A DNA stretch of 64,000 nucleotides from Tepidanaerobacter syntrophicus. GTDB taxonomy: Bacteria; Bacillota; Thermosediminibacteria; Thermosediminibacterales; Tepidanaerobacteraceae. The DNA is taken from positions 62,001-126,000 of the forward strand of contig NZ_DF977001.1 in assembly GCF_001485475.2 (NCBI RefSeq). The letters are read 5' to 3'. Positions 42,180-59,008 of the stretch are shown one piece after another; the stretch's first letter is position 1; each line of letters opens with the position of its first letter. The notes below the pieces were generated by a model. It was not told the DNA's origin, ran no database searches, and worked only from the letters and a program-made list of their open reading frames with translations. Both the position numbers and the translations under genes were made by a program.

Positions 42180-42190
42180 TATTCCCACTC
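42180..42190. other. Attachment site, far end
   Basis: This copy of TATTCCCACTC reads on the minus strand as the end of guaA (TIEWE then TAA). Homology to the other end extends imperfectly to 17 bases (ACAATTGAGTGGGAATA here, ACTATCGAGTGGGAATA at guaA). Confidence 0.75.
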
Positions 42191-42406
42191 AATTGTTAAA
42201 GTTTTATTCGTCGTTATTCCTATTATTTTCAGTTATTTCTATTATCATATTTGCTCAAATTATTGTCAATTTTTAAGTTTAGCAATTTTTTTGCTTCCAT
42301 ATTGCTACCACGTTGATTCTCTATTCCGCATAAAATGATAAGCTCATTTTTCATCTTTATCATGTAAAGTATCTCCATCGTTTTTTATTTTTAACCCCAC
42401 TTTGAT
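42191..42406. other. Non-coding left end of the element
   Basis: About 216 bases without a supported gene. It contains a 20-bp sequence at 42293-42312 (GCTTCCATATTGCTACCACG) that recurs with one mismatch at 59009-59028 near the other attachment site, in the same orientation. This is a candidate arm-type integrase binding site. Confidence 0.55.
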
Positions 42407-42739
42407 TCATATCTTGAACTCCTTCCGATACCATTGGTGAAGGTCCTCTGTGGTGTTTAGCTTGGCCGCCAGCGCCTGGCCACTTTCGACCAGCTTGTAA
42501 TATTTGTGTTTGAACTCTTCGATTGTTAATACCTTGAACTGCCATTCCCCCGGCATGTATCCTTCAGATATGAAGGTAAATCCCTTCTCGGTCTCCTCTG
42601 TAATCTTTCCCGGGATCTCATGGTCTCTATTGGTATCAAAATAGCGGAGGTTGCCTTTGTGCATGTGTACGTCCAGAGCTATGCCGGTGAAACTTTCCTC
42701 ATCCGGAAGCTTGTATATATAAACAGCTTGTCTGTCCAT
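42407..42739 (-). CDS. Hypothetical phage-type protein
   Basis: This 110-residue protein begins MDRQAVYIYKLPDEESFTGI and ends in LHQWYRKEFKI. It has no membrane segment and I do not recognise a domain. The ATG at 42739 is preceded by AGGAGGTAAAAAGATC; the upstream extension to 42781 runs through the ribosome site. It is the last gene of the left minus-strand block of the element. Confidence 0.65.
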   Translation of the reverse strand: MDRQAVYIYKLPDEESFTGIALDVHMHKGNLRYFDTNRDHEIPGKITEETEKGFTFISEGYMPGEWQFKVLTIEEFKHKYYKLVESGQALAAKLNTTEDLHQWYRKEFKI

Positions 42740-42886
42740 GATCTTTTTACCTCCTCTTACCTGAAAATAAGCACTTTGCACCGTACTGGCACTGTGCTAT
42801 TACTGTGCTTTTCCGGTGCATCTCTGGTGCTCTTTTAGTGGCCTGTATCCTACTATTATACTACATCAGATATCTGATTAAAATAC

Positions 42887-43267
42887 CTATTGAAACTCTG
42901 GCGCTGGTATTTGACTGCACCTTCTGTAAAGCTGCCGGTTCCTGTATTTACTAAAGTTATTCACCTGAATATAGTTGCTGCCATTTACGCTGTATCGCAC
43001 GATAAAGCGTCTATCGTGCAGGCTCTGCAGCATTTCATCAACCTGGCTGGCGCTCACATCATCAAATCCCATTATAACCTTCTTGATCTTCCTGGGATTG
43101 TCCTCCATGCGTCCCTTGTCATCTACCATGGTCCAGAGGCCTGCAAATAATAATCTGGTTAATGGCGGGAGTTCTCCCATGGCATCATTGTCAAAAATGA
43201 GGTTCTTTATATTGCGCATTTGCTCCATCTGCCTTTGAAAAACTGGTGTTATACATGCTTTACTCAT
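42887..43267 (-). CDS. Phage replisome-organizer-like N-terminal domain protein
   Basis: This 126-residue protein contains the winged-helix pattern common at the N-terminus of phage replication proteins: LPPLTRLLFAGLWTMVDDKGRMEDNPRKIKKVI, then VDEMLQSLHDRRFIVRYSVNGSNYIQVNNFSKYR. The C-terminal DnaD-like or DnaB-loader-contacting region is missing, so it is a stand-alone domain. A full-length replisome organizer with related architecture is at 55784. GGAGG site before the ATG. Confidence 0.7.
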   Translation of the reverse strand: MSKACITPVFQRQMEQMRNIKNLIFDNDAMGELPPLTRLLFAGLWTMVDDKGRMEDNPRKIKKVIMGFDDVSASQVDEMLQSLHDRRFIVRYSVNGSNYIQVNNFSKYRNRQLYRRCSQIPAPEFQ

Positions 43268-43290
43268 ACCGTTAGCCTCCTTCTCAAATT

Positions 43291-43566
43291 TTAAGCCGTT
43301 ATTTTGATGGTGTCGGCGTCTCCAGTAATTAGTCTTATCAGCTGTGCGCCTGCTCTGATTCCATCGATATAGCCCTGGTCATACACAGAAGTTGTAAGAT
43401 TGTTGAGTTTGTCTTCTGCCGCTATTTTGCCTACTTTTTCAGCCAGTAATGACAAGATTTCCTCTTTGGCTACCTCGATATCCTCCTGAAGATCAGCTGT
43501 AGATATGGCATTGGTATTCTCCTCGGTCTGCAAAAAACATGCTAATTGATAAATGTTCTTTTTCAT
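43291..43566 (-). CDS. Hypothetical phage protein
   Basis: This 91-residue, mostly helical, acidic protein begins MKKNIYQLACFLQ and contains DQGYIDGIRAGAQLIRLITGD. I do not recognise it. It has an AAGGAGG site and lies 23 bases upstream of the winged-helix gene and 20 bases downstream of the DUF5131 gene, in one operon. Confidence 0.65.
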   Translation of the reverse strand: MKKNIYQLACFLQTEENTNAISTADLQEDIEVAKEEILSLLAEKVGKIAAEDKLNNLTTSVYDQGYIDGIRAGAQLIRLITGDADTIKITA

Positions 43567-43586
43567 CCTTCATTCCTCCTTATTTA

Positions 43587-44537
43587 TTATTCGTTCCGGA
43601 ACGGGCACCATGTCGGGCTGGTCCGTGCATACCTTCCTGGTATATGTTTGCCTACCTTCATGCAATCGTGCCGGTTCCCTCGCTTCCCTTCCGGGGTTAT
43701 TTTGCAGTACTCACACTTCTTGCAGTGTGGGATTGGTTTCTCCTCCGGCAGTATTAGTTCTGCAGGGAACTCCTGTATTAAATCCCCGCCCCAGACTTTC
43801 TCCAGCTCTTTGCTGCTATTCATAAAGACCGGGATTTCGGCGGTTCTGGCTGCAGTGACGATTGTCTCTATCCATTCCCGCTTTGGCTTTACTTTGTCCC
43901 GCCTATTTCCGGTCTCGGCTCCGATGATGATCCAGTCCATGAAGTCTATGTCGCTTATGTCTATCTCCTCCAGGAGCGGCTCTATATTGATGAATTGGTT
44001 ATGCTGCTTCCTGGGGAGGAATACTATCTGATCAAGGTCAGCGCTCCTGGTGACGGTCGTCCCGTACCAGAAATTCCTGGAGCGGGGGAGTAGCCCTATG
44101 GAGCTCATTTGTTCGTATCTTTGCGGGTACCTCGTCATGAAAAGGTAATTATGCCATGGTGCTGCTTCACAGGCCCTGAATACTTCCTCTATCCAGGTAT
44201 CCGGGATCCAAGGTCCGAACAGATCCCCCAAGCTGCAAACGAAAATGTTCGCTGGTTTCTTCTTTTGTGCCGGCATTGGCAGGCGGTACCTGTGCATTAT
44301 AGGTTCAAATCCCACCGGGTCCGGTATAACCTTGCCTACCTGGTTTTTAAATGGGTTATCCAGGATATAAAGTCCGTTTTCATCCTTCCGGAGCTGGCTG
44401 GATCCTTTGTTGATCCTCACGTCTCCGGAGAAGCGCTTTGCCTGTTTCGCTGCGTAGCAGTATGGGCAGCCATGCCGGCAGCCGGTGACCGGGTTCCAGG
44501 TGAAGTTACACCACTCGATCTGTGATATGTTCATCAT
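43587..44537 (-). CDS. DUF5131 (phage Gp37/Gp68 family) protein
   Basis: This 316-residue protein has the family start IEWCNFTWNPVTGCRHGCPYCYA. Its CRHGCPYC is a CxxxCxxC pattern identical in form to the radical-SAM [4Fe-4S] motif. Later landmarks are NIFVCSLGDLFGPWIP, WHNYLFMTRYPQRY, GTTVTR and IIGAETGNRRDKVKP. Four more cysteines near the C-terminus (HCKKCEYC) may bind a second metal. The family is frequent in phages and mobile elements, and its reaction is not established to my knowledge. Confidence 0.88.
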   Translation of the reverse strand: MMNISQIEWCNFTWNPVTGCRHGCPYCYAAKQAKRFSGDVRINKGSSQLRKDENGLYILDNPFKNQVGKVIPDPVGFEPIMHRYRLPMPAQKKKPANIFVCSLGDLFGPWIPDTWIEEVFRACEAAPWHNYLFMTRYPQRYEQMSSIGLLPRSRNFWYGTTVTRSADLDQIVFLPRKQHNQFINIEPLLEEIDISDIDFMDWIIIGAETGNRRDKVKPKREWIETIVTAARTAEIPVFMNSSKELEKVWGGDLIQEFPAELILPEEKPIPHCKKCEYCKITPEGKRGNRHDCMKVGKHIPGRYARTSPTWCPFRNE

Positions 44538-44571
44538 CTGTTTATTCCTCCCTTCCTGGTATTAGTCGGTG

Positions 44572-44627
44572 ATAGGTAAAAGGTAAAAGGTAATAGGCAA
44601 TAGGTAATAGGTTAAAGGTAATAGGCC
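44572..44627. repeat. Short tandem repeat (AATAGGT / AAAAGGT units)
   Basis: About seven degenerate units of 7-8 bases lie between the DUF5131 gene and its upstream neighbour, in about 110 bases with no gene. They contribute several weak AGG triplets but no obvious ribosome site. Confidence 0.6.
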
Positions 44628-44647
44628 CGGCTTGTACTGTGCTTTTC

Positions 44648-44935
44648 TCATACTTGTATGAGACTAATCTGGTGCTTTTTGAAGGTCCTTGATTTTGTTA
44701 GGCTTCCAATAGGCGCCGGTATTCTGTCCTTATGTTGCTGCTTTGCGATAGCTGCAGCTTCTTTTCTTATTGTCTCAGCTTCCTCCGGTGTCCTGGCTGT
44801 GATCATGATGGTAATTACTCCAGGCTTTAGTTCCCGTGCTACATGGACCGGCGTTTCGTCCTCGTCAATCGTGATTATGTACCTTACCTTTGGCTGCTGT
44901 GTGATAGCTGATTGCAAGCTTACTACTTTGGCCAT
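44648..44935 (-). CDS. Hypothetical phage protein
   Basis: This 95-residue protein begins MAKVVSLQSAITQQ and has an alternating beta/alpha pattern (VRYIITIDEDETPVHVAREL, VITIMITARTPEEAETIRKEA) and a basic C-terminus. The ATG at 44935 follows GGGGGTAAAAGAC. The frame is open further upstream to 45067, but that part is proline-rich and reads like a frame shadow of the fragment described next. Function unknown. Confidence 0.6.
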   Translation of the reverse strand: MAKVVSLQSAITQQPKVRYIITIDEDETPVHVARELKPGVITIMITARTPEEAETIRKEAAAIAKQQHKDRIPAPIGSLTKSRTFKKHQISLIQV

Positions 44936-44957
44936 GTCTTTTACCCCCTTTATCAAT

Positions 44958-45173
44958 TTATGTGGTTGGGTCGTCCTCTTCGGGTATGTTTGCCTGCTCC
45001 TGGTTGGTATCCACCCGCGCCGCGTGGAGGCGGCAGGCTCTGCGGGCATGGCACCTGGCGGTGCCATTTGTGGTTGGGTTGTCTGTTGATCCGGTTTTCT
45101 TTTGCCTGCTGGCTTCCGGTACTGACTTTAAGTTAGTTATAAATTGAACTATGGGAGCGGATCTGGTACAATG
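44958..45173 (-). pseudogene. Possible 3' remnant of a lost phage gene
   Basis: A 72-codon open stretch has no usable start codon at its head. It includes protein-like sequence (VQFITNLKSVPEASRQKKTG, then VDTNQEQANIPEEDDPTT before the stop). It ends 22 bases before the ATG of the next gene, as operon genes do. The missing 5' part would lie where the putative small-RNA promoter and hairpin now stand, suggesting a deletion junction near 45174. Low confidence. Confidence 0.3.
45144..45172 (+). promoter_or_regulatory. Strong sigma-A-type promoter
   Basis: TTGAAC (45144-45149), a 17-base spacer and TACAAT (45167-45172). No plus-strand gene follows for more than 500 bases; a hairpin does. Confidence 0.6.
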
Positions 45174-45178
45174 TTAGT

Positions 45179-45256
45179 ACAAGACCGCTCCGGTTGGTCT
45201 GTGTGAAGCTCTTTACATCAAAGCTTTTAGTCGGGTGCTGATGTAAGGGGCTTTTC
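45179..45256 (+). ncRNA. Candidate small RNA
   Basis: Transcription from the promoter just upstream would give an RNA of about 75-80 nt. It has a short 5' hairpin (GACC / GGTC around 45183-45199) and a long 3' stem (AGCTCTTTACATCA with TGATGTAAGGGGCT, including G-U pairs) around an 18-base loop with AAGCTTTTAGTCGGG, then TTTTCTT. It has no ribosome site or start codon. It converges on the gene at 45257-45532 and ends at that gene's stop. Confidence 0.45.
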
Positions 45257-45532
45257 TTATGCCACTGTGAAGCGGCGGGATTCTATTTCCTTCAAGTATT
45301 GCTTATAAAGTTCTGCATGTGTCGTCTTAAACGCTGCTGTATCAAAGCGGCTGCTTTTTACAACCTTCCAACGGATCTTGAAAACATCAACCACCATTTC
45401 ATCTACTCCTCTGGCGCTCATCTCAGCTTTAATCGCATCCTGAATACTATTTATTTCTGCCTGAAGCTCTTCTGCCATTGCCTGAAGTTCTTTAAGCTCT
45501 CTAACCTTGCTTACTAATTCGTTTGTACTCAT
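45257..45532 (-). CDS. Hypothetical phage protein (helical)
   Basis: This 91-residue protein has an N-terminal coiled coil (VRELKELQAMAEELQAEINSIQDAIKAEM) followed by a short beta-rich part with VFKIRWKVVKSSRFD and YKQYLKEIESRRF. Proteins of this plan are common in Clostridial prophage early regions; the function is unknown. It has a GGGAG site and a divergent partner, the XRE gene at 45687. Confidence 0.7.
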   Translation of the reverse strand: MSTNELVSKVRELKELQAMAEELQAEINSIQDAIKAEMSARGVDEMVVDVFKIRWKVVKSSRFDTAAFKTTHAELYKQYLKEIESRRFTVA

Positions 45533-45633
45533 GTAATCACTCCCTTTAATTGTTTCTGTTTATAATATAAATGATATTGTTTATAGTGTCAATGACTAAT
45601 TTAACGTTTCTCAATAAAAGAGAAATAATATCG

Positions 45634-45662
45634 TTGATTTATTAAATAAATTCGTTTATAAT
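45634..45662 (+). promoter_or_regulatory. Promoter of the small XRE gene
   Basis: TTGATT (45634-45639), a 17-base spacer and TATAAT (45657-45662) lie 25 bases before the start. Upstream are a TTTCTC / GAGAAA inverted repeat (about 45607-45624) and repeated TGTTTATA motifs (about 45556 and 45580), possible operators for the divergent pair. Confidence 0.65.
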
Positions 45663-45686
45663 GAGAATATCGAAAGGAGTGGTTAT

Positions 45687-45902
45687 ATGTCCGTTTCGGA
45701 ACAGTTAAAAATTCTATGTGTTAAGCTTGGTATAAGTGTTTCTGAACTCGGAAGGTTATCCGGCAGAAGTCCACAGGCCTTTAATCAAAAGATGAAGCGT
45801 GAAACTTTTACTGTCGATGAGCTAAAAAAGATAGCCGAAGCTGCCGGATGCAAATACGAGGGCTCTTTTATACTGCCATCTGGCGAGAAAGTCACATATT
45901 AA
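45687..45902 (+). CDS. Small XRE-family HTH protein
   Basis: This 71-residue protein is almost entirely a helix-turn-helix domain (LKILCVKLGISVSELGRLSGRSPQAFNQKMKRETFTVDELKKIAEAAGCKY). It could act as a Cro-like repressor for the divergent promoters at 45532-45687 and for the cargo genes downstream. AAAGGAGTGG ribosome site. Confidence 0.85.
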   Translation: MSVSEQLKILCVKLGISVSELGRLSGRSPQAFNQKMKRETFTVDELKKIAEAAGCKYEGSFILPSGEKVTY

Positions 45903-45920
45903 TTGAGGGGATGTCCTGCT

Positions 45921-46022
45921 TTGGAAAAGAAAAATATTCATATTTTTGCGCCCTACAACAATGGCTTTACTGTAAAAATTCCAGGAGCTGGGTACCTCAA
46001 TGGCAAGGAGGCAAGAGAGTAA
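45921..46022 (+). CDS. Possible 33-residue small protein
   Basis: The frame starts with TTG after GAGGGGATG and reads EKKNIHIFAPYNNGFTVKI, then PGAGYLNGKEARE and a stop. It lies between the XRE gene and the membrane protein. It is too short to judge by composition. The 88 bases after it have no gene. Confidence 0.3.
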   Translation: MEKKNIHIFAPYNNGFTVKIPGAGYLNGKEARE

Positions 46023-46110
46023 AATTTGCCCTTGGTACAACTTTGAAAACGACAGCGAGGTGACAAATGGCAGCATTTCCATTAAAAAATAATTAAGAAA
46101 GGATGATTTT

Positions 46111-46992
46111 ATGTTTATGGTTCTTGGTTTAACCGGAATGGTAGGCTTTGTGGTCTGCCTGGTTGTTTTTATAATCTCACTGATTAGAAAAAAGTCGAAG
46201 AAGCCAAGTGCTATTGGTATGGTTGTGTGCTTCACCTTGTTTTTTGTCGGTTTGGCATTGACGCCTCCAGCGCCAGAAAAAACAGCAGTAGAAAAGGAAC
46301 CGGCCCCGATTATTACGGAGAGCACTGACTTTGAAAGTGAAGCTCCCTCTTCAAGTGTTATGCCTTCTGAGACCATTACGCCTGTTTCCACTGCTGACGA
46401 TAGTCAGTCTGCAGAGAGTTCCTCACCATCCGAGCCGTCCAAGCCATTCGAGCCAACTGAACCGACTGAAACTCAGCCTACCGAAGTATCGGAGACTGTC
46501 TTCACATTAGATGATGAGATAATTCCGGGACTTAAGGCAGCCGATATAAAACTGAACTTGGTTAAATGGGGATTGAAGGAGGCCTCTTCCAAGAAATCCG
46601 AGGGCTCTGACGACATTTCCTATATTTCCTCCGTGGTCGATTCTGAAACCGGTGCTGATCTGTCCTATTTCATCATGACAAACAGTGCTCTTAATGTGAA
46701 ATATGCAACCTTCTCAATTATCAATCTGGCTGCTATATCTGAAGAGGATTTCCTTAATATCGCTACCGGTTATCTTGGTTACTGTGCTACTGTTCCATTT
46801 GACGGTGCCGAGCCTGAAAAATCCAAACAGTGGATCGAGGACAACATTAAAAAGTGTAATGAAGCGGGAAAGATTGAAACACTGAATGTCGGCAATGTAG
46901 AATTTTCACTCTACGGCACTGGCAACAGTTCACGATATCTTGAAATAAAACCCATAAAAAATAATCCTCAGCAGAGCTCATCGGAAGATTAA
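46111..46992 (+). CDS. Membrane-anchored protein with Ser/Pro/Glu-rich linker
   Basis: In this 293-residue protein two hydrophobic helices lie at about residues 3-25 and 33-50. A low-complexity linker (about 55-128, many SEPS, PTE and PSK units) follows, then a folded C-terminal region of about 160 residues (VFTLDDEIIPGLKAADIKLNLVKWG onward) that should lie outside the cell. A short cysteine-containing loop (YLGYCATVPF, IKKCNEAGK) may form a disulfide. I do not recognise the domain. AAAGGATG site. Followed after 29 bases by the Fic gene. Confidence 0.7.
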   Translation: MFMVLGLTGMVGFVVCLVVFIISLIRKKSKKPSAIGMVVCFTLFFVGLALTPPAPEKTAVEKEPAPIITESTDFESEAPSSSVMPSETITPVSTADDSQSAESSSPSEPSKPFEPTEPTETQPTEVSETVFTLDDEIIPGLKAADIKLNLVKWGLKEASSKKSEGSDDISYISSVVDSETGADLSYFIMTNSALNVKYATFSIINLAAISEEDFLNIATGYLGYCATVPFDGAEPEKSKQWIEDNIKKCNEAGKIETLNVGNVEFSLYGTGNSSRYLEIKPIKNNPQQSSSED

Positions 46993-47021
46993 ACGAATTT
47001 ATAAATGGAGGAGTTGATAAA

Positions 47022-47771
47022 ATGACGATATATGAAAAAATCGACCGCTACAAGCTGGCCATTGATGAAAAGCGTCCCTTTGAAGGTCATTTGCTTCATG
47101 AAATTAAAAACTACTACCGGATAGGCCTTACATGGTCCAGCAATGCCCTCGAAGGGAACACCCTCACTCTAAGTGAAACAAAGATCCTCCTGGAAGACGG
47201 ACTGACTGTCGGAGGGAAGCCTCTTCGGGATACATTCGAAGCCCTGGGGCATGCAAAGGCTTATGATTTCATGTTTACATTGCTTAATAGTTACCAAATA
47301 ACCGAAGAAGACGCCCTTACAATGCACCGGATGTTCTATACAGGTATTGATGCCGAGGAAGCGGGAAAATACCGCAGTCGCCCAGTCTTTATAACCGGCT
47401 CAAAATATGAAGTATGCCCAGTAGAACGGATAGAAGAGGAAATGAAAAACTTATTCCAGTGGGCATGCTCCGCGCGTAACAAATACCATCCGGTCCAATT
47501 TGCCGCCCAGCTGCATAAGCGGTTCGTATTTATTCATCCTTTCATAGATGGAAATGGGAGAGTTGCTCGGTTGCTGATGAATACGGCGCTTATTCAAGAC
47601 GGTTATATGCTGGCCATAATTCCGCCGGTCTTGCGACATGAGTATATTAGCTTACTGGAGCGGGCTCATGAAGATGATCAACCTTTTATGGACTTTATTG
47701 CCGAACGCGTTCTTGAGTCTGAAAAGGAAATTATGAGGTTATTGAATATCCCTTTTCCTCATCTATCCTAA
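47022..47771 (+). CDS. Fic family protein
   Basis: In this 249-residue Fic-domain protein the catalytic motif is HPFIDGNGRVAR (His at about residue 172). The N-terminal segment SSNALEGN (Ser40 to Gly45) matches the inhibitory (S/T)xxxE(G/N) motif. In class II Fic proteins Glu from this helix blocks ATP until released. Fic enzymes usually transfer AMP to a protein target. No separate antitoxin gene is needed or seen. GGAGG site. The gene ends at a bidirectional terminator. Confidence 0.9.
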   Translation: MTIYEKIDRYKLAIDEKRPFEGHLLHEIKNYYRIGLTWSSNALEGNTLTLSETKILLEDGLTVGGKPLRDTFEALGHAKAYDFMFTLLNSYQITEEDALTMHRMFYTGIDAEEAGKYRSRPVFITGSKYEVCPVERIEEEMKNLFQWACSARNKYHPVQFAAQLHKRFVFIHPFIDGNGRVARLLMNTALIQDGYMLAIIPPVLRHEYISLLERAHEDDQPFMDFIAERVLESEKEIMRLLNIPFPHLS

Positions 47772-47862
47772 AATAAAATAAGAGCGATATCTGTCCGTTA
47801 AGATTCCGCTCAAAATATACCCAGTGGTAATATTTAAGCCATTCCGCGTTTATATGAAAAAG

Positions 47863-47898
47863 AGAGCCTCTACCGGGATAAAGTCCTGGAGGCTCTCT
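47863..47898. terminator. Bidirectional terminator after the Fic gene
   Basis: The stem AGAGAGCCTC / GAGGCTCTCT sits between convergent genes. It is flanked by AAAAA on the left and TTTGTGTTT on the right, so it can act on both the Fic transcript and the minus-strand gene at 47962. Confidence 0.75.
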
Positions 47899-47961
47899 TT
47901 GTGTTTCTGGTGTAGCTTTGATGTCATTGTCCTATTGTATGACATGGAAGAGCTATGGCCG

Positions 47962-48231
47962 CTAATATTCACTTGGGAAGAGGATTGTTGTCGCAGATCT
48001 ATCCCATTCGGTAATAATCCAGATCTTTCCCTTGCTGGTCTCATATGCGGCCAGTATCCGCTCGCCTGTCCTGGCTGCCATATCATTCAGATCTTTATCC
48101 TCTTGACAAAGGTCTCCCCAGTCATATTTCCGGTACCGGTTAAAGGCTGCTATGACTTCTTGAGCAAATGCCGGGTTTTCCTTCATTTCATCAGCTACAC
48201 CTTTTATTGCGAGTATCGTTCCATATTCCAT
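47962..48231 (-). CDS. Small conserved mobile-element protein
   Basis: This 89-residue protein ends in GKIWIITEWDRSATTILFPSEY, a C-terminus I recall in small proteins of Firmicute plasmids and phages. The middle carries WGDLCQEDKDLNDMA. Function unknown. Weak GGAGAAA site. It is transcribed alone against the cargo genes. Confidence 0.65.
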   Translation of the reverse strand: MEYGTILAIKGVADEMKENPAFAQEVIAAFNRYRKYDWGDLCQEDKDLNDMAARTGERILAAYETSKGKIWIITEWDRSATTILFPSEY

Positions 48232-48366
48232 GGGGTTTCTCCGCTTGCTTTAGTTTGTATTCATGTTAATACGATCAGCTCACCTGGTTAAGGCATACCA
48301 GGTGGGTAAATTCAGGACCAGCTCCAAATACGTTGGCGTATTTAATAACGTTCAGCGGATGAGGAG
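48232..48366. other. Gap with two hairpins
   Basis: Hairpins CACCTGG / CCAGGTG (about 48279-48302) and AAATACG / CGTATTT (about 48327-48343) lie between divergent genes. No coding sequence is supported. Confidence 0.4.
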
Positions 48367-48375
48367 GTGGTTATC

Positions 48376-48732
48376 CTGATCATTGCTATTAATTACACCG
48401 TGGAATACGACGAGGCCCGCAAGGTTTATAAGATCCGGAATAAAGATGCTCCATTTTGCCCGGACTGCGGCCAGCTGCTCTCCGGATATGATACAAGAGC
48501 TCGCCATGTCGTTGATAGTTCGGGCCAGATCTGCTGGTACCGACTGCGCCGGTTAAAGTGTCTATGTTGCGATAAACTGCATCTTGAGCTTCCGGATTTT
48601 ATGGCTCCTAAAAAGCATTATGAAGCCAGGCTTATAGAAGATGTTATGGCTGGCCGATCGGATTCTTGCCCGGCTGATGATTCGACAATCCGAAGATGGA
48701 AAAAAGGAAAATACCCACCCAGTTTGCCTTAA
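48376..48732 (+). CDS. DUF6431-type zinc-ribbon protein
   Basis: This protein of about 118 residues has a zinc ribbon (FCPDCGQLL, later LKCLCCDKLH), an intervening basic YRLRRL, and a C-terminal STIRRWKKGK that looks like a DNA-binding helix. The start is uncertain. GAGGAGG at 48361-48367 points to CTG 48376, ATC 48379 or ATT 48382, while the frame's only standard start, GTG 48367, lies inside the ribosome site. Similar proteins occur on Clostridial mobile elements and resemble the front end of IS-type transposases; no catalytic acids are seen. Confidence 0.6.
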   Translation: MIIAINYTVEYDEARKVYKIRNKDAPFCPDCGQLLSGYDTRARHVVDSSGQICWYRLRRLKCLCCDKLHLELPDFMAPKKHYEARLIEDVMAGRSDSCPADDSTIRRWKKGKYPPSLP

Positions 48733-48790
48733 TAACCCGGAGCTTCTGTAGTATTTTTGTAGACAAGCCAGTTGAAAGGAGTGATAAACC

Positions 48791-49273
48791 ATTGGAAACA
48801 GAATTTTTAAAAAAATAGCTGTCTCATTCGGTATAGCTTTAGCTTTGTTTGTAGCCGCAGTAATCGGTTACAATTTTAACGATGCGAGCTTGTCCTTACC
48901 TGGAGACTCTGTGAAGACATTCTCCGATGTAGATGTATCATCGAATAACAGTGGCGCCCCTGGTATGATCACAATCCCAGGTTACAAGCATATCACTATG
49001 AAAGCAGGCCAGAAGGTTCAGAAGGTAGAGCTCGGTAATCCAAAACAAAATAACTGTTATATGTCAATTGCTATTAAGCTCCCAGATGGGACGCAGCTTT
49101 ATGAGTCAGGTTTGCTTGAACCCGGACAGGTCCTTACCTCTATTGAAATCTCCCGAGAGCTAAAATCCGGGATTTATGAAGGGGCAATCCTGAGCTATTC
49201 ATGCTATGACATGGAGGAAATAAAAGAGCTAAATGGTGCTGTAACTATTTTTGATTTGGAGGTTATGCCATGA
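48791..49273 (+). CDS. Exported protein, first of a coupled pair (ATT start likely)
   Basis: A 160-residue protein if translation starts at ATT 48791, nine bases after AAAGGAG. That start supplies the basic N-terminus and signal helix (GNRIFKKIAVSFGIALALFV). The first standard start in frame, TTG 48845, would begin in the middle of that helix. The exported part is beta-rich (MITIPGYKHITMKAGQKVQKVELGNP, MSIAIKLPDGTQLYESGLL). The stop overlaps the next gene's ATG (ATGA). No domain recognised. Confidence 0.65.
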   Translation: MGNRIFKKIAVSFGIALALFVAAVIGYNFNDASLSLPGDSVKTFSDVDVSSNNSGAPGMITIPGYKHITMKAGQKVQKVELGNPKQNNCYMSIAIKLPDGTQLYESGLLEPGQVLTSIEISRELKSGIYEGAILSYSCYDMEEIKELNGAVTIFDLEVMP

Positions 49274-49800
49274 ATAAAAGAGTTTTGTCTGTATTAATAG
49301 CCATCATCCTGGTGTGCAGTGTTATGCCAATAGAAGCACTTGCAAGCCAGACATCTGGAAGTATGACCGTTTCCTATACCTATACTTTCACACCTGATTA
49401 TACAATAAATATCCCCGCTTCAATCTCTATCAATGATAGCGAAGTTATTACATTCACGGCTGAAAAAATGGATATTGGATCTGATAAGGAAGTCCATATT
49501 AAAATCGACGGTGAAGCTACATATGAAAACGGCGGAAATTTTTATCTTTATAAAGATAAAGGGACAGAAAACGAGTCAAAAATACCTTGCTCTATTTTGC
49601 GCTCAAATCCATCTGGAAGTATTGGATGGACTAAAATTAACGGCTTGAGCAACGAGGATGTAGCTTGGTTTAGAGATGGTGATACAAATGTGAGAGGTTA
49701 CGGAGCTCTTAAATTTATACCAAATGTCCCCAGCGGCTCTCCCTATGGAACATATACAGGAACGGTCTATTTTAAGATTGAGCTCATTGATAAAAGCTAA
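49270..49800 (+). CDS. Exported beta-rich protein, second of the coupled pair
   Basis: This 176-residue protein has a signal peptide (MNKRVLSVLIAIILVCSVMPIEALA) and a mature part of about 150 residues with alternating polar/hydrophobic strands (SMTVSYTYTFTPDYTINIP, TVYFKIELIDKS). A single beta-sandwich domain is likely. It resembles small secreted proteins of the WxL or fimbrial-subunit type in layout only. Translation is coupled to the gene upstream. It is followed by a strong terminator. Confidence 0.7.
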   Translation: MNKRVLSVLIAIILVCSVMPIEALASQTSGSMTVSYTYTFTPDYTINIPASISINDSEVITFTAEKMDIGSDKEVHIKIDGEATYENGGNFYLYKDKGTENESKIPCSILRSNPSGSIGWTKINGLSNEDVAWFRDGDTNVRGYGALKFIPNVPSGSPYGTYTGTVYFKIELIDKS

Positions 49801-49828
49801 TTAATTCATAAAAGCATGTTAGTAGTAG

Positions 49829-49860
49829 AACCCTGGAAAAACCAGGGTTTTTGTTTTCTT
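49829..49860 (+). terminator. Terminator after the secreted pair
   Basis: AACCCTGG / CCAGGGTT stem with a 5-base loop, followed by TTTGTTTTCTT. Confidence 0.85.
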
Positions 49861-50028
49861 GCTTACTCTATAAAATATATTTTAGGCGCGTATTTCCCCT
49901 TTATTTTGAATTTTAACTCCAACATGGGTATTTACCTTACCTACTTTAAATTCGCTCCGTACAAGTCAAATCTGGCCGTTTCTCGCCTGCATTTTTGATA
50001 TGGACATGTCCGTCCAAACAAGTAAAGC

Positions 50029-50056
50029 AAAAGAGCGGATTTTATTCCGCCCTTTT
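50029..50056. terminator. Terminator after the gp10-like gene
   Basis: The stem AAAGAGCGGA / TCCGCCCTTTT (one G-U pair) lies 18 bases beyond the minus-strand stop at 50074, with T-rich sequence on both sides. Between it and the previous terminator (49861-50028) no gene is supported; an 8-bp palindrome, GGACATGTCC, lies near 50002. Confidence 0.65.
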
Positions 50057-50073
50057 ACTTTTTAAGGCTAAGC

Positions 50074-50556
50074 CTAATACGGCTCTTTGAAGATTTGACT
50101 AATACGAGGCATTGCTTTCTCGATGATAGGATCCTCAAATGGTCTTGGAGCCATTCTATCGGTTCCCTCTTCGAGATATGGAGCATACTTTACTTCAGTA
50201 GTAATTGCCGGTTTTATTGTTACGGTCTTGCCTATTCGCTCGGATGCAGATTGCGGTCTCCAACTTAAGCGCAGGTTTCCACTGCGATTTGCAGGCGGTT
50301 CACCTGGTGCTGAAGCTCTGTATAATTGCCCACCTCGCAATTTATGGCCATAATCTTTAAGCAAGCTCTTTGTTTGCTTTGTCATCCTGCTGCCATATGT
50401 GCCAGGCTTCTTATAAACCTTACCGGAACGCTCTCCTCGAAGGACAGTTAAAGCTGAATTCCGGAGCTCGTTGGCTGCACGAAACGCTCTTGATTTGGCT
50501 TGATAAGTTATTTCCTCCACAATCTCATTAACAGCGCCCTCTAAATCAATCTTCAA
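50074..50556 (-). CDS. HK97-gp10-like phage tail/neck protein
   Basis: In this 160-residue protein a helical N-terminus (VNEIVEEITYQAKSRAFRAANELRNSALTVLRG) is followed by SGNLRLSWRP and YAPYLEEGTDRMAPRPFEDP, the typical ending of HK97-gp10-type proteins (the YAxxxExGT and RPFLxPA pattern). In phages this protein belongs to the head-tail joining or tail completion group. It usually lies before the tape measure gene; here it lies after it. The TTG start overlaps the tape measure stop. Confidence 0.75.
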   Translation of the reverse strand: MKIDLEGAVNEIVEEITYQAKSRAFRAANELRNSALTVLRGERSGKVYKKPGTYGSRMTKQTKSLLKDYGHKLRGGQLYRASAPGEPPANRSGNLRLSWRPQSASERIGKTVTIKPAITTEVKYAPYLEEGTDRMAPRPFEDPIIEKAMPRISQIFKEPY

Positions 50557-53500
50557 GCTTCAGCCACTCCTTTCACCGGCATATTTGCAAAAATGCGGGC
50601 CAGTCTTTCTGCCAGCTCGTCTCCGATGTCGTCAGTCATTTCGCGGATATAAGCCTTCAGTATGGCCACCACTTTGTTTTCATCGGTGTTGTCTCCGCCG
50701 CCTTCAATCGTGAATTTAGGCTCTGCCTTGACTTCTACCTTGATGGTGATGTTCTGGCCGGCCTTTCCGGTTGCGGAGGCTACCGGGATTTCGTCCGGTT
50801 CCTCTCCTACGATTCCGCCGTCTTCATAGGCCCTTACGCCAAGAAGCTCACCGGTCCGCTGCCATAAATCAAGGCCTCTTTGCCTCTTGCTTGGGCTTAA
50901 CGGGATAATTCCTTCAGCTCCGTCCTCGGCCACGATGCCCATGTGCGGCTTTGTCATAATGCCGCCGTATGCATGTTCGAGGACGCTGCCTTTGCCCTGG
51001 CTGGTCGTCAGGCCGGTTTCTTTCGATCCTTTTTGACCCAGGCCTCCGAGCCAGTCTTTGAAGCTCTGCCACTTGTCGCCGATCCATTCACCGATGCCAC
51101 CGAGCTTTTCGCCTACCCATTCCCATGCCCTGGTTGCTCCGGTCTTGATGGGTTCCCAGACTTTCTGTTCAAACCATCCCGACACTCCGGACCAGGCTTC
51201 GCTTATGGCATTCTTTGCTGCTGTGAACTGATCTCCCAGCCATGCTCCTGCTGTCTGCGCTGCGCTTTTCACCGGCTGCCAGACCGATTCATCAAACCAA
51301 CCTGAAACAGCTCCCCAGGTCTCGCTTACCCAGGTCTTGGCCTCGCTCCATCTTTCGCTTACCCACTGGCCTGCTGCCTGGGCTCCTGTTTTGACCGGTG
51401 TCCATATTGACTCTTCAAACCATGTTGAAAAGTCGGACCAGCGCTCGCCTATCCATGTTCTTGCCTCGCTCCATCTTTCGCTTACCCACTGGCCGGCGGC
51501 TTGGGCTGCATTGCTTACCGGGGTCCATATCGATTCATCAAACCACCCGGAGAAATCACTCCATTTATCTCCGATCCAATCTCTTGCCTCGCTCCATGCT
51601 CCTGCTGCGATGTTAATTGCTGAAATACCAACGTCCTTTGTCGGGGTCCATATCGAAGTTTCGAACCATTCACTGAACCCGCTCCACTTGTCACTGATCC
51701 ATGATCCGGCGTTTGAGGCTCCTGTCTTGATGGAGTCCCATGTGTTGCTTGCCCATATCTTGGTATTTTCCCAGAACTTTGATAAAGCTCCGTCTTTGTC
51801 CGTTGCGTCAGATAGGGCTTTGCCGGCTTTATCTCCGGTTAAAAGCGCCGCTGCGCCGCCTATTCCTGCACCGATTAAAGTTCCAAGTCCAGGCATGATT
51901 GCAGTACCTATTAAAGCACCTGTTCCGACCATACCTGCTTTGGTTCCTGCGGTTACATACTCATCTTTAGCAACTTTGTTATTGCCTGCTTTGCTTGCTT
52001 TTATTCCCTGATAAACATCAATTCCTGCGCTACCAAGTCCGAGGATCCCGCCTATAATTCCGGCTATCCCTGCGGCGCCTGCAGCTGCAGCTCCGCCGGC
52101 AGTTGTTGCTCCGCTTCCGAGTGCTACTCCTAACTTGGCCAGGCCTGTTGTTAATGCGCCTCCGGACGCTACGTATGTGCCATTAGCAAGCTTCACAGTA
52201 TTTATAGCATTTCCTGCCGCTCCCGCGGCGCCCGGTAAAGCAAGAGGCGATCCTCCTCCAGGAAGCTTCGGTATTGTCGCGGGTCCTCCTCCAGGTAAGC
52301 TTGGAATGTTGTTTATGATTTTGCCCCCACTTCCACCTTCTCCAATCGTTGGGCCATTGATGTAAACTACGGAGGCCGTAACGGCCATAGTGGAAGTTAT
52401 GAAGCTGTCAGGGACAAGAGATCCTGTTGCTGCAGGTACTCCATCTTTGCTCCCTTTTCCAAAAAGGTTAAATAAACCTTTCCCGGCCTTACTTCCCAGC
52501 TTAAAAACACCTGTTCCAAGTTTAAAGATACCTGTAAGTAGCGGCCATATTTTAGCAATTCCTAACCCTATTGCGCCGGCAGACAGCCAGGATGTACTGC
52601 TTGGCTTCTCTCCTCCTGGAAGCAGCGTTCCTGCGTCCTTAAATACGCCTTTGATAGCGTTCAGGATTGCCTCTCCTACCTTCTTGCCGTCAAATCCCCG
52701 TGTAAAACCTTCAGCGAATGAAGCGCCTATGCTGGTTCCGTCCTCTACGGCACCCCTGGCGTCAATTCCGAGTATGGCCAGCAATCCTGCGGAGAGTGCA
52801 GTTCCTATTCCTTCGCCGATTTTGCTGGCTTTGTCTGCAAGCCAGGCCTTACCGGTTGAATTCCACCACTCGTTGAATGGCTGCGCTATGATCTTATCCC
52901 AGGCTATCTTCAGCTTTTCTCCGAAGTTCTTGGCGTCTTTCCATTCCTGGGAGTTAACCATGCGCTGTATGCTATTTCTCAAGGCATCCACTCTGGCCAT
53001 TACCCACTTGGAGATATTTGCTCCGGCTTTCTTCCAGGCCTCTCCCCATTGAGCGATGATATCCTGGTTCTCGTCTATCCAGGTAGTGATCTTTTCAAGT
53101 CCTGGCTTTACGCCTTCCCACAAGCCTTGTCCCCAAGGCCTCAAGAGTGAGTTTTGGAGAGTGTCTTTAAGGGTTGAGATCATACCTTTGGCCGTCCTGG
53201 ATTGGTTGTCCATCATTCCGCCGAAGCGCTTATCCATGCCTCGTAACAATGCATCGATAACTTTTGCCGCTTCTATGCTCTCTTTACCGATGTTCGCTAT
53301 CTGCTCTCCGGTGAGGCCGAGCTCTTCCTGCAGGATCTGGTTAGCCGGCACGCCGAGTTCCTGGAGCTGCAAGAGCTCTTCTGTCTGCGCTCGCCCTTTG
53401 GCCTGCATCTGGCCGAGGGCCCTGGTGATTCTGTCTATTCCTTTGGAGCCGGCTCCCAGGCCGCTGGCCGTATCGCCTATGGTTTTCAGCATATCCAGCA

Positions 53501-54044
53501 CCTTATCCGCTTCAAATCCGAAGGCCATTAGCAGCTTACTGCTGTTGATCAGTTCCGGAAATTCAAACGGCGTTTTGTTCGCAAACTCTGACGCTTCCTT
53601 CAGGAACTGCTGGGCCTTCTCGGCGCTTTTTAGCATGGTCTCAAATGCAATCTGTGTCTGCTCAAAGTCAGCGGCTATGTCCATTGGTTTATAAATGCCA
53701 GCAAATGCGCCGGTGGCCCCGAGTATAGCTCCCTGGATGGAAGTCGCAAAGTTCCATAGGCTTCTCAATGGTGCCGTGGCCAGATCGATTACTTTCATCG
53801 TAAAACTGAACGTCTTACCCGCTATGCTGCGTGCTTTTGATGAAACTTTACCGACAATGCTTGACGCCCTATCCAGCGCGTCAAGGACGATCTGGTATTT
53901 TGTTTTATTCATCTGCTCCAGCCTTTCCTGGGTCCTTTGACTTGCTTTATCAAAGGCATTCAGCTTACTTTTAGCCTGGGACACTCCAGGATCTGTATTA
54001 TCCTTGATGCTTATTGGTATCTCAATTCTATAGACGTCACCCAT
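50553..54044 (-). CDS. Phage tail tape measure protein
   Basis: This 1163-residue protein has a tape-measure N-terminal domain (FEQTQIAFETMLKSAEKAQQFLKEASEFANKTPFEFPELI, GSKGIDRITRALGQMQAKG, MDNQSRTAKGMISTLKDTL), several hydrophobic Gly/Ala-rich stretches near 610-760, and about six tryptophan-rich units of roughly 33 residues at about 770-1000 (for example WSEARTWIGERWSDFSTWFE). The C-terminus has GAEGIIPLSPSKRQRGLDLW. Tape measures set tail length at about 1.5 angstrom per residue, giving about 170 nm here. GAAAGGAGGATAACT precedes the ATG. No tail tube, chaperone or baseplate genes adjoin it. Confidence 0.9.
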   Translation of the reverse strand: MGDVYRIEIPISIKDNTDPGVSQAKSKLNAFDKASQRTQERLEQMNKTKYQIVLDALDRASSIVGKVSSKARSIAGKTFSFTMKVIDLATAPLRSLWNFATSIQGAILGATGAFAGIYKPMDIAADFEQTQIAFETMLKSAEKAQQFLKEASEFANKTPFEFPELINSSKLLMAFGFEADKVLDMLKTIGDTASGLGAGSKGIDRITRALGQMQAKGRAQTEELLQLQELGVPANQILQEELGLTGEQIANIGKESIEAAKVIDALLRGMDKRFGGMMDNQSRTAKGMISTLKDTLQNSLLRPWGQGLWEGVKPGLEKITTWIDENQDIIAQWGEAWKKAGANISKWVMARVDALRNSIQRMVNSQEWKDAKNFGEKLKIAWDKIIAQPFNEWWNSTGKAWLADKASKIGEGIGTALSAGLLAILGIDARGAVEDGTSIGASFAEGFTRGFDGKKVGEAILNAIKGVFKDAGTLLPGGEKPSSTSWLSAGAIGLGIAKIWPLLTGIFKLGTGVFKLGSKAGKGLFNLFGKGSKDGVPAATGSLVPDSFITSTMAVTASVVYINGPTIGEGGSGGKIINNIPSLPGGGPATIPKLPGGGSPLALPGAAGAAGNAINTVKLANGTYVASGGALTTGLAKLGVALGSGATTAGGAAAAGAAGIAGIIGGILGLGSAGIDVYQGIKASKAGNNKVAKDEYVTAGTKAGMVGTGALIGTAIMPGLGTLIGAGIGGAAALLTGDKAGKALSDATDKDGALSKFWENTKIWASNTWDSIKTGASNAGSWISDKWSGFSEWFETSIWTPTKDVGISAINIAAGAWSEARDWIGDKWSDFSGWFDESIWTPVSNAAQAAGQWVSERWSEARTWIGERWSDFSTWFEESIWTPVKTGAQAAGQWVSERWSEAKTWVSETWGAVSGWFDESVWQPVKSAAQTAGAWLGDQFTAAKNAISEAWSGVSGWFEQKVWEPIKTGATRAWEWVGEKLGGIGEWIGDKWQSFKDWLGGLGQKGSKETGLTTSQGKGSVLEHAYGGIMTKPHMGIVAEDGAEGIIPLSPSKRQRGLDLWQRTGELLGVRAYEDGGIVGEEPDEIPVASATGKAGQNITIKVEVKAEPKFTIEGGGDNTDENKVVAILKAYIREMTDDIGDELAERLARIFANMPVKGVAEA

Positions 54045-54087
54045 AGTTATCCTCCTTTCTGAATTATTTTAATTAATTGCATGGGTT

Positions 54088-54174
54088 TTAGAAGGGAGGA
54101 GCTCTGCCACAGTAAAGGTAACTGCTAACTAATGCACTTATATAGCCTTTTCCCTTTAACTTTCCGCTTTTCAC
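54088..54174 (-). CDS. Possible 28-residue small protein
   Basis: The frame has a GTG start with an excellent AAAGGAGGGATAAC site and reads MKSGKLKGKGYISALVSSYL, then YCGRAPPF and a stop. It fills most of the gap before the tape measure gene, in the same direction. It occupies the spot where tail-assembly chaperones usually lie but is far too short to be one. Confidence 0.5.
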   Translation of the reverse strand: MKSGKLKGKGYISALVSSYLYCGRAPPF

Positions 54175-54207
54175 GTTATCCCTCCTTTCTGCTTATAGCT
54201 TCCCGGA

Positions 54208-54510
54208 CTATTTCTCCGAGCTGATTTCTGGCTTGATTTCAGTCAAGCAAAAGTCCAGAATATCACATATTTGCTTTAGTGCAGCGGTTATATATCCTTC
54301 GTTCATTGGGCTGCCTATTTGAATGCTGTTAAGGAGCTCTTTGGCTTCTTTTAGCTTGTCCAAGGCTTTCTCATGTGGCGTCTTTTCAGCAGCCTTTCTT
54401 GCTGCAGCTTCCCTTTCCTCTTGCTGCCGCTGTAGCTCCTGGCGTTGTTTTTGCTTTTCGATGTACTTAGCTCTTTCCTCATTTCTAACTTCTGCAGTAG
54501 GGAAAAACAT
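54208..54510 (-). CDS. Hypothetical phage protein with Gln/Glu/Arg-rich coil
   Basis: This 100-residue protein has MFFPTAEVRNEERAKYIEKQ, then an extended charged helix (QRQELQRQQEEREAAARKAA) and a second helical part with GYITAALKQICDILDF. No known domain. The ATG at 54510 lies 7 bases after AAGGAGG; the frame to 54519 passes through that site. Confidence 0.65.
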   Translation of the reverse strand: MFFPTAEVRNEERAKYIEKQKQRQELQRQQEEREAAARKAAEKTPHEKALDKLKEAKELLNSIQIGSPMNEGYITAALKQICDILDFCLTEIKPEISSEK

Positions 54511-54515
54511 TGTCT

Positions 54516-54956
54516 TCACCTCCTTCCAAATTCTTCAGTTAACTTTTTTGTTATTGCCTCCTGGAGTTTAGCTTTTATAAAAGCCGGACTTTCCTCTTCA
54601 GGGAGCAACTCAATCCCGCCGATACCATATAAAATTACCGTCAGGTCCCTTACGCCTCTGTCTATGTCCTTGAATAATGTCCTTCTGTTTATGTTAAATC
54701 GTGCCGCCGTTTTATAGCTATCCAGAGGATTTTCTGCAAAATAGAAACAAAGCAATTCGTTATACACTCTGGTTTTTTCACCTTTAGCTATCTCCCTGTA
54801 TATCTTCATCGCTTGTATAAGTACCGCTTTCTCCTCTGGGCTTGACTTACCATCCCTATATCTTTGCAAGGCCTGTTTTACAGCTTTCTGCCGGGCTTCA
54901 ACCATGATACTTGAACTGTCTTCCTGCTCAATTAATTCCTGAATGTTAAATGCCAT
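54516..54956 (-). CDS. Phage HTH regulator (ArpU/late-activator-like)
   Basis: This 146-residue protein has an HTH at about 85-115 (SYKTAARFNINRRTLFKDIDRGV), after a helical region with VLIQAMKIYREIAKGEKTRVYNEL. The layout is like phage proteins that activate late genes or resemble sigma region 4. It lies directly after the sigma-factor gene, and the two likely act together. Start set by AAGGGGGATGTGA before the ATG at 54956. Function inferred from position. Confidence 0.65.
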   Translation of the reverse strand: MAFNIQELIEQEDSSSIMVEARQKAVKQALQRYRDGKSSPEEKAVLIQAMKIYREIAKGEKTRVYNELLCFYFAENPLDSYKTAARFNINRRTLFKDIDRGVRDLTVILYGIGGIELLPEEESPAFIKAKLQEAITKKLTEEFGRR

Positions 54957-54978
54957 TTCACATCCCCCTTGGTTATTG

Positions 54979-55665
54979 TTATATGAGTTTGAGAGCCTCG
55001 TCCTCAAAGCTAATAACAACGCTCTCTGGATTTGAGAATTCACTTATACGTCTAAACTGGTAAACTTCCCCTAATTCTTGAATGGATTCTGATTTACGCA
55101 GTTTATTGAAAGCCGAGCATCTTATATCCCATGTAAGCCACCTTTCCCATCCCATGATCTCACATATCTCTGTAATGGTTTTTTCTTCATAATACCGGTA
55201 ATGTATGTAAATCTGTTCTCTTGGCGAAAGCTTATCTATCTCTTCTCTGACAATAAGCATCATATCGTTTAGTTCGCAATAACTGTATGTATCCGAAGAG
55301 GGGTCACAAATAGCATCCTCTAAAGTAAGGTCGTCTCCGTCTTCAGATATGGGTGCATTGAGCGATATCGTCTCAACCTGCCGTTTACCCTTAAATCCTA
55401 ATTCAGCGAGGCATGTATTTTTCACGTGATATCCAAGATATGAATTAAAAAGAAGTCCCTTATCAGGTGAAAAATCATTAACGGCCTCTAAAACCGCAAA
55501 GTAACCGCACTGAAGTAAGTCTTCCGGCTCTGCTAAACTGTTCTTGCATAGAGGGAAATACCGGCTTATGAGCTTGAAAAGCAGTGGCTTCACTGCGAAA
55601 TACAATTTATGCAGGCTTTCTATATCTCCCTGCGCGGCCATGGCCGCCAACTCCTCATTTGTCAC
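54979..55665 (-). CDS. Phage-encoded sigma-70-family factor
   Basis: In this 228-residue protein region 2 is recognisable in EDLLQCGYFAVLEAVNDFSPDKGLLFNSYLGYHVKNTCL and region 4 in LSPREQIYIHYRYYEEKTITEICEIMGWERWLTWDI. No region 1.1 or 3 is evident, so it is small like the prophage sigma factors of Clostridia and the PBSX Xpf factor. GTG start after AGGGGGTTATTACAA. It probably directs RNA polymerase to the element's late genes. Confidence 0.85.
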   Translation of the reverse strand: MTNEELAAMAAQGDIESLHKLYFAVKPLLFKLISRYFPLCKNSLAEPEDLLQCGYFAVLEAVNDFSPDKGLLFNSYLGYHVKNTCLAELGFKGKRQVETISLNAPISEDGDDLTLEDAICDPSSDTYSYCELNDMMLIVREEIDKLSPREQIYIHYRYYEEKTITEICEIMGWERWLTWDIRCSAFNKLRKSESIQELGEVYQFRRISEFSNPESVVISFEDEALKLI

Positions 55666-55783
55666 TTGTAATAACCCCCTCTCCGTGATAGAATATTAAA
55701 AAATATGTTAATATTTGGCTAAACGGAGCGGGAGCTGTTTATAATGCTCTCGTTTTTATTTTTGTTTGTTAGCAACCATAGTC

Positions 55784-56746
55784 TTATTTCTCCTTATCTA
55801 TTGACCGTGAATAGAAATAATAATCTTCTGCTCGTTTGAAGCCTGCAAGCATATCTCTCTTACTTTCTGCTCCCGGCGAGCTGGCCGCTGGTTGCTGATT
55901 GTTCCCGTCAAAATACTTGCTATTGATTCCATTCAGCGGTTCCTCCTTGTATTCATCATCCCATCTTCCCTCGTTCAGCCAGGTTTTTGGGTTTGGTATA
56001 TATCTGCCGTTTTCTCTCTGCCATTGCCACGTTGCTTTAGCTCTTCCTATGGCCGTCATGATCTTGTCAAACAGTTCTGTATCAGGCTTGACCTTTTTCC
56101 AGGCGTTCCATGCTGCCTTCTTGCCTACTTTCTTTGGATATGCGGTCCAGAATTCATTAAATCTCTTTTCCTGAAGGCTTGGATCCGCCACGTCACTCTC
56201 TTCTTCAAGATCACGGTTTATGTTAAGGTTACGGTTAAGGTTACGGTCACGGTTACGGTTACGGTTAGGGTCGGATGTCCCATTGTCTTGTCCTATGGAA
56301 TGTCCATAGTCTTGTCCCGCGGACTGTCCCGCGGACATTCCGCTATCATTATCACTTTGACGTTGTTTCCTTTTTCGTTCAGCCTCTTTAGCCCGCTTAT
56401 CGAGTGCTTTATACCATTGATCCTGCCATACATCCCAGTCATGCAGAATAAAATGACCATCATCAGCAACATCAATCCATCCAGTAGAGATGAGACTTTC
56501 CAGAAGATGTTCTGCTGCTTCATGTGCAGATTGTCCCGCGGACTGTCCGCGGTACATAATGCCGTCAGCTATATCATCAGCTGTTGCACTAAGAATATTT
56601 CCATCTCGATCAGCATTATTAAGGCCCCATAACCACAGTGTAACGAGTATTCCAATCGCTTCATGCCTACTGCATTGAAGCTGGCGAGCTAATGCTCTGG
56701 TTTTTGGGTGATCTCGCACACCTTCATGAGCGCTTACCCATGCCAT
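55784..56746 (-). CDS. Phage replisome organizer
   Basis: This 320-residue protein has an N-terminal winged-helix domain (MAWVSAHEGVRDHPKTRALARQLQCSRHEAIGILVTLWLWGLNNADRD region). Then come a charged linker, repeated SAGQ and NRNR tracts, and a C-terminal domain with FNEFWTAYPKKVGKKAAWNAWKK and NPKTWLNEGRWDD, a pattern found in phage replication initiators of Firmicutes. It should bind the element's origin, possibly within its own gene (see the repeats at 56218-56555), and load helicase. GAGGAGGTGGTGAGT precedes the ATG at 56746. Confidence 0.85.
   Translation of the reverse strand: MAWVSAHEGVRDHPKTRALARQLQCSRHEAIGILVTLWLWGLNNADRDGNILSATADDIADGIMYRGQSAGQSAHEAAEHLLESLISTGWIDVADDGHFILHDWDVWQDQWYKALDKRAKEAERKRKQRQSDNDSGMSAGQSAGQDYGHSIGQDNGTSDPNRNRNRDRNLNRNLNINRDLEEESDVADPSLQEKRFNEFWTAYPKKVGKKAAWNAWKKVKPDTELFDKIMTAIGRAKATWQWQRENGRYIPNPKTWLNEGRWDDEYKEEPLNGINSKYFDGNNQQPAASSPGAESKRDMLAGFKRAEDYYFYSRSIDKEK
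56218..56272. repeat. Six-base tandem repeats (GGTTAC) in the replisome gene
   Basis: About nine units of GGTTAC/GGTTAA/GGTCAC encode alternating Asn-Arg residues. Unit length 6 keeps the frame when units are lost or gained. Confidence 0.8.
56313..56555. repeat. Iteron-like 12-bp repeats, candidate origin
   Basis: TGTCCCGCGGAC occurs at 56313-56324, 56325-56336 and 56532-56543, and a variant TGTCCGCGGTAC at 56544-56555. Each contains the palindrome CCGCGG. They are the two Gln-Ser-Ala-Gly tracts of the protein. Phage origins of this type often lie inside the initiator gene. Confidence 0.5.
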
Positions 56747-59007: not shown

Positions 59008-59008
59008 T

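Follow-up and report, generated by a model that had tools for sequence, protein, structure and literature searches.

Parts of the locus reported here have described counterparts. The PLE11 satellite of Vibrio cholerae encodes its own tape measure and a hub-like protein, along with cargo affecting phages, and the same account covers capsid-forming phage-inducible chromosomal islands (PICIs), integrated satellites with putative tmp genes (PMC12987554). Class 2 Fic proteins termed 'Sofic' are reported to give phage protection by abortive infection (PMC12249575), and the TapA-TasA fibre of Bacillus subtilis is a Gram-positive case of a complete immunoglobulin-like (Ig) helper paired with a donor-strand subunit (PMC10151520). 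We analysed a 64,000-nucleotide stretch of Tepidanaerobacter syntrophicus (contig NZ_DF977001.1, positions 62,001 to 126,000; hereafter the window, numbered from its first base) and in it a block of accessory genes at 45687-49800. The block lies in an integrated element of 16,919 bp (42180..59098), for which there is a strong case as a phage satellite rather than a phage. A preliminary description had recognized the carrier as phage; phage-related it is, but satellite-like and not an ordinary phage.

All of the plus-strand genes named in that description were found in place by open reading frames (ORFs) and family scans. The cargo forms two transcription units, because a strong terminator hairpin (47859..47900, plus strand; -26.6 kcal/mol, z -5.4) directly follows the Fic gene; hairpin-like sequence was also seen by eye 3' of Fic in related elements. 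Unit 1 comprises a 71-amino-acid (aa) XRE regulator (45687..45902, plus; Pfam HTH_26, 1.4e-5), then either a 65-aa zinc-ribbon ORF or a membrane protein, and then a 249-aa Fic enzyme of class 2, N-terminally self-inhibited (47022..47771, plus; PF02661, 8.4e-22), all under a conserved divergent promoter. The window has the optional membrane protein, which bears a long linker (46111..46992, plus) and occurs in 3 of 11 other elements, and beside it a remnant of the ribbon ORF (45921..46022, plus). That ORF is not open in the four elements with the membrane protein (window, L005, L017 and L088) and is open, its end overlapping the Fic start, in the other eight, so that the slot carries one or the other. 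Unit 2 comprises a DUF6431 zinc-ribbon protein, ZN (48367..48732, plus; PF20020, 3.6e-29); EX1 (48791..49273, plus), with one transmembrane helix and an Ig-like domain; and EX2 (49270..49800, plus), with a signal peptide, an N-terminal alternating strand and, in its predicted structure, a pilin-like beta-sandwich. Predicted terminators at 49827..49851 (plus) and 50024..50061 close the block, which, together with a rightward promoter (45634-45662) kept in 10 of 10 aligned elements, bears out the earlier claim of its own promoter and terminators. Two other claims held in part. The named genes are indeed on the plus strand, but a conserved 89-aa minus-strand ORF (m47962, 47962..48231) lies among them, so the block is not entirely plus; and of the 'two exported proteins' EX2 is one, while EX1 is membrane-anchored and not freely exported.

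Relatives of the element were gathered from viral-contig, whole-genome and genome-contig searches; L004 is the window's own element and is left out of the counts. The cargo genes stand together in all 11 other records, at protein identities down to about 32-89%, which disposes of the possibility, raised in the preliminary description, that they never occur together elsewhere. L009 and L086 are ∼99% alike over 8.6 kb, so these records are not all independent. Named hosts are Thermoanaerobacter sp. A7A and Desulfoscipio geothermicus (both metagenome-assembled genomes) and Thermoanaerobacterium butyriciformans. Full-length XRE and Fic are present in 11/11, an essentially full-length ZN in 10/11 (truncated in L003) and a full-length EX2 in 10/11, the exception being the truncated one of L079/L087. 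In L003 and L079/L087 EX1 is broken or partial; its match is partial in L017 and L088, where the ORFs are open. L079/L087 is decaying, with a large deletion besides the broken EX1 and truncated EX2.

The same genes in 11/11 other elements, together with low ratios of nonsynonymous to synonymous substitution (dN/dS), confirm that the block is real and more than chance. Ratios for the cargo genes measured are mostly 0.02-0.3, and wherever the ratio is defined, values for cargo and backbone fall below about 0.36, except one DUF5131 pair at 0.56, which rests on very few changes; rows with coverage <75% or an internal stop, including all those of m47962 and a few others, were left out. The tape measure gene gives about 0.09-0.16, and purifying selection acts also on integrase and cargo. 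Positive selection on EX1 and EX2 was considered and is ruled out by ratios of about 0.14-0.20 against L007-L009 and L086. Their synonymous divergence is raised, at 0.61-0.65 for EX1 and 1.74-1.89 for EX2 versus 0.17-0.30 for the neighbouring ZN and 0.25-0.45 for gp10, which points to allele exchange there. Judged by its sequence, the block is thus a conserved two-unit accessory cargo of a satellite family in thermophilic Firmicutes. No satellite with this cargo, and nothing on phage satellites in Thermoanaerobacter, was found in the literature, the former judged from titles and abstract openings.

The start of EX1 is unusual. There is no ATG, GTG or TTG at the right place; an AUU codon (48791-48793) stands there behind a good ribosome-binding site, both conserved in the window and L005-L009, and EX1 appears to start with it. 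The EX1 and EX2 genes are neighbours in the elements, as they also are on the chromosomes of several Firmicutes, at times alongside several EX2-like copies, and an LPxTG-like anchor protein can be read from the sequence near the pair in L078, L085 and L103. The ZN-EX1-EX2 set recurs in L090, and EX1-EX2 stands next to an integrase in L089. Among PLSDB plasmids no EX2 relative was found, and in phage records EX1 relatives occur only in unannotated Listeria contigs.

Predicted structures suggest a more specific role for the pair. The EX1 model has a mean predicted local distance difference test score (pLDDT) of 76, its Ig-like core being mostly above 90; it aligns to a GbpA domain with Z 8.7 and root-mean-square deviation (rmsd) 2.8 over 94 residues, and lower, at Z about 6-7, to the FimC/PapD chaperones. 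For the EX2 model (pLDDT 71), chaperone-usher pilins fill 49 of 50 rows, the best at Z 7.8 and rmsd 3.5 over 117 residues, and an alternating hydrophobic stretch precedes its core as a donor strand would. A fibre made by EX1 and EX2 is on these models an attractive hypothesis only. EX1 and EX2 could instead be generic adhesin-like surface proteins taken from a host chromosome and forming no fibre, a reading that we consider somewhat improbable and that stands up best among the alternatives: several Firmicutes have relatives on their chromosomes, some of these adjoining very large surface proteins, and the EX1 domain matches GbpA and other Ig-like domains best. Against it, the EX2 rows are nearly all donor-strand pilins, and the alternating hydrophobic strand of L080 and L088 is set apart from the EX2 core by a Gly-rich linker. 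Among the block proteins no Pfam or NCBIfam family named for TasA or camelysin was matched at E up to 1 and family scans found no usher gene; neither EX1 nor EX2 has a Pfam match to a WxL or WxL-interacting domain.

Unit 1 begins at a divergent control region (45558..45667) with a leftward promoter (45592-45564), the rightward promoter already mentioned and three operator-like repeats, GTTTATARTRWNAA, at 45558, 45579 and 45654; a gp157-like gene (45257..45532, minus) diverges from XRE across it. The region upstream of XRE has 82% mean column identity over 10 elements, both promoter-like sites and the operator-like repeats included. The operator pattern has three exact matches, all within 110 bp, and six with one mismatch versus 2.0 expected; since the pattern was defined after inspecting the region, its count is descriptive. 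The conserved promoters and operator-like repeats suggest that the cargo unit and the leftward operon are both under XRE control.

The sequences HPFIDGNGR and S-x-x-x-E-G are invariant in all seven aligned Fic proteins (alignment A3), in agreement with the class 2 motif HPFx[D/E]GN[G/K]R and the N-terminal inhibitory motif [ST]xxxE[GN]. The protein matches the PADLOC profiles PDC-S04 (1.9e-31) and SoFic (9.8e-26; profile positions 63-269 of 361, the protein stopping at 249 aa), so that the block is not wholly 'unlike known defence islands', as had been stated. Its contents are compatible with the host-modifying or competition module proposed at the same time, once carrier type and likeness to defence genes are corrected. 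A different element, G113 (L065), which has several recombinase-like genes, also carries XRE-Fic, there next to a gp157-like gene.

Fic relatives at 1e-40 occur in 48 of 299 genomes, and 30 of the listed places were examined (L104-L133). In seven of these 30 loci Fic lies beside guaA, the host gene at which the element is integrated, and convergent with it, without the rest of the element. These solo loci lack the ZN-EX genes, save for a 40-residue ZN stretch in L109/L160. XRE is full length in four (one 36% identical), partial in one and undetected in two (L121/L162 and L122/L163). Five of the seven solo Fics have the class 2 motif and the other two read HPYIDGNGR; dN/dS is 0.06-0.21 where measurable.

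A role for XRE-Fic as a defence or maintenance module is plausible from these sequences. The pair might alternatively be a plain toxin-antitoxin or addiction pair that stabilizes the element and has no anti-phage role. In keeping with this, only XRE and Fic stay intact in 11/11 elements, and it is they that persist beside guaA; we nevertheless think such a pair unlikely, since Fic has its own inhibitory motif, which makes a separate antitoxin unnecessary, and since two of the seven solo loci have Fic without detectable XRE, which a strict pair would forbid.

The case for a satellite rests on the carrier element as a whole. Two att-like cores (TATTCCCACTC) bound it at the 3' end of host guaA (GMP synthase; 59087..60655, minus), and no tRNA gene was found in the window. 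The element encodes a tyrosine integrase (57883..59007, plus; PHROG integrase, 5.8e-77), and so has its own integrase and site-specific attachment. The only structural genes of a helper-type phage in it are those for the tail tape measure (50553..54044, minus; about 75-87% identical to helper-type phages), a gp10-like neck or tail-completion protein (50074..50556, minus) and one head-module gene, g42410 (42407..42781, minus), an about 70% homolog of the helper-type phage gene between minor head protein and protease; family scans of the element recognized neither a head gene nor a large terminase. The virion gene set is incomplete in all 12 elements tested, several of the loci being partial.

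The helper-type phage G108 is a unit of ∼56.4 kb with terminase subunits, portal, major head, sheath and tube. With its proteins as queries, the tape measure was matched in 12/12 elements, the neck protein in 11/12 (the exception being L088) and the gene adjoining the minor head protein in 9/12, the exceptions L003, L007 and L028 being sequences that end early or are partial; large terminase, major head, sheath and tube were unmatched in 12/12, several loci again being partial. No cargo gene was found in G108 or in a second such phage, G109. Bases 1-129 of G109 are 98% identical to the satellite right end, integrase gene end included, with the att core at 117, and at the far end of the prophage a core at 55807 is followed by guaA. 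Our reading is that a satellite and a helper-type prophage lie in tandem at guaA, though the join may conceivably be one of assembly. Of 12 helper-type records, which are mostly fragments, one shows such a tandem; it and the shared tape measure associate the element with a helper. L008 has an attP junction, in which the att core connects the integrase end with the left end; the contig repeats its own first 4 kb at 97.2% identity, indicating a tandem or mixed circular form and not a clean circle. That the element is instead a decaying prophage, its head and most tail genes lost and its cargo ordinary drifting morons, is very unlikely: only scattered structural genes of the helper-type phage remain and L079/L087 is clearly in decay, but the architecture, or large parts of it, is common to eleven other records, tape measure, integrase and cargo genes are under purifying selection, an attP form exists (L008) and a satellite end stands in tandem with a helper-type prophage (G109).

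The explanation that we favour, and to which as a whole we give about an even chance, is one in which the cargo functions are inferred throughout. The satellite would excise and depend on a contractile-tailed helper phage, to which it would contribute tape measure, neck and one head-module gene of its own, probably making the helper's particles chimeric. In the integrated state XRE, bound at the divergent promoter, would repress the leftward operon and also the unit to which it and Fic belong. Fic would be a self-inhibited SoFic-type class 2 AMP-transferase, released to shut the cell down when a competing phage enters; alternatively it may keep the element in the cell. EX1 as a membrane-tethered Ig-like helper and EX2 as a secreted pilin-like subunit could form a short surface fibre by donor-strand exchange, altering the host surface. 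A bolder version, improbable on present evidence, would have this minimal Gram-positive donor-strand fibre select adsorbing phages, favouring the helper and excluding rivals, with XRE-Fic killing wrongly infected cells and EX1-EX2 the founders of a widespread, undescribed Firmicutes fibre family.

Several observations count against the favoured explanation. In the window's own genome a tape measure query found no close helper, only a 37% partial match elsewhere, and the same query at 1e-100 found no helper in 60 relatives. A small terminase was not recognized in the window element, being present only in G112, so that packaging of the element is unexplained. Fic lacks the SoFic-type C-terminal domain. 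The fold matches are weak: Foldseek gives a best E of 1.2e-2 for EX2, with none <0.001, and 1.6e-3 for EX1; the highest VIA Z values are 7.8 (EX2) and 8.7 (EX1), where Z <8 may mean merely a common arrangement; and the 40 N-terminal residues of EX2 have low model confidence. Finally, the solo Fic loci may be decayed satellites or may represent an ancestral guaA neighbour. Direction is indicated only for G005, which retains a gp157 remnant beside guaA, and suggested for G216, where two att-like cores flank a 2.4 kb remnant.

The remaining genes placed in the element are those for a CI-like repressor (57235..57849, plus), a replication initiation protein (55784..56755, minus; two replication-initiation-like proteins are encoded according to family scans), a sigma-factor-like protein (54979..55665, minus) and a DUF5131 radical-SAM-like protein common to helper-type phages (43587..44537, minus), which also matches the PADLOC candidates PDC-M41B and PDC-M30B. 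Within the tape measure gene, self-matches reveal repeats at 51247-51597 with a period of ∼123 bp. Just beyond the left end of the element lies a gene for a strongly repetitive coiled-coil-like protein (41223-41942), and at 2628-9746 the ORFs read as a cluster of methyltransferase-like and corrinoid-binding-like genes with a transporter. Among the relatives, the 23 kb member G112 (L063/L064) shows 56-77% identity to the helper-type phage in its genes for small terminase, portal, part of a minor head protein and hub-like proteins, and the portal protein of the G126 element (L080, 14478-15875) shares 82% identity with the G108 portal.

These results link a helper-type contractile-tailed phage and a satellite in thermophilic Firmicutes, in tandem at one site, and add, after PLE11, a sequence-based case of satellites bringing tail parts. 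They also single out a class 2 Fic that hosts retain once the rest is gone, and a surface pair of chaperone/pilin-like character whose distribution takes in Firmicutes chromosomes as well as other mobile elements.

As to the known systems, the EX2 model aligns to a pilin and the EX1 model to a chaperone, as in chaperone-usher pili (FimC with FimG/FimA); unlike in those, no usher was found, an outer membrane is not expected and the match is one of fold only. TapA-TasA, as the cited account presents it, is the closest described Gram-positive case to EX1-EX2, which would likewise be a helper and subunit pair; the differences are that there is no TasA/camelysin sequence match and that the predicted N-terminal helix of EX1 is read as a transmembrane anchor. 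With SoFic, in the cited description, our Fic shares class 2 membership, the N-terminal inhibitory motif and the profile match; it differs in its 249-aa length, without the C-terminal part, and in being preceded by XRE. Like the capsid-forming PICIs of the cited account, the element is an integrated satellite with tmp; in contrast to them, neither the major head nor the large terminase of the helper type is matched in the elements here. With PLE11, again as described in that account, the family shares a tape measure gene of its own, a hub-like protein in one member (G112) and cargo that may affect phages. It differs from PLE11 in its hosts and helper, in its guaA site and in a cargo of Fic and surface proteins; as a kind, this satellite cargo is ordinary, and in its content it is unusual.

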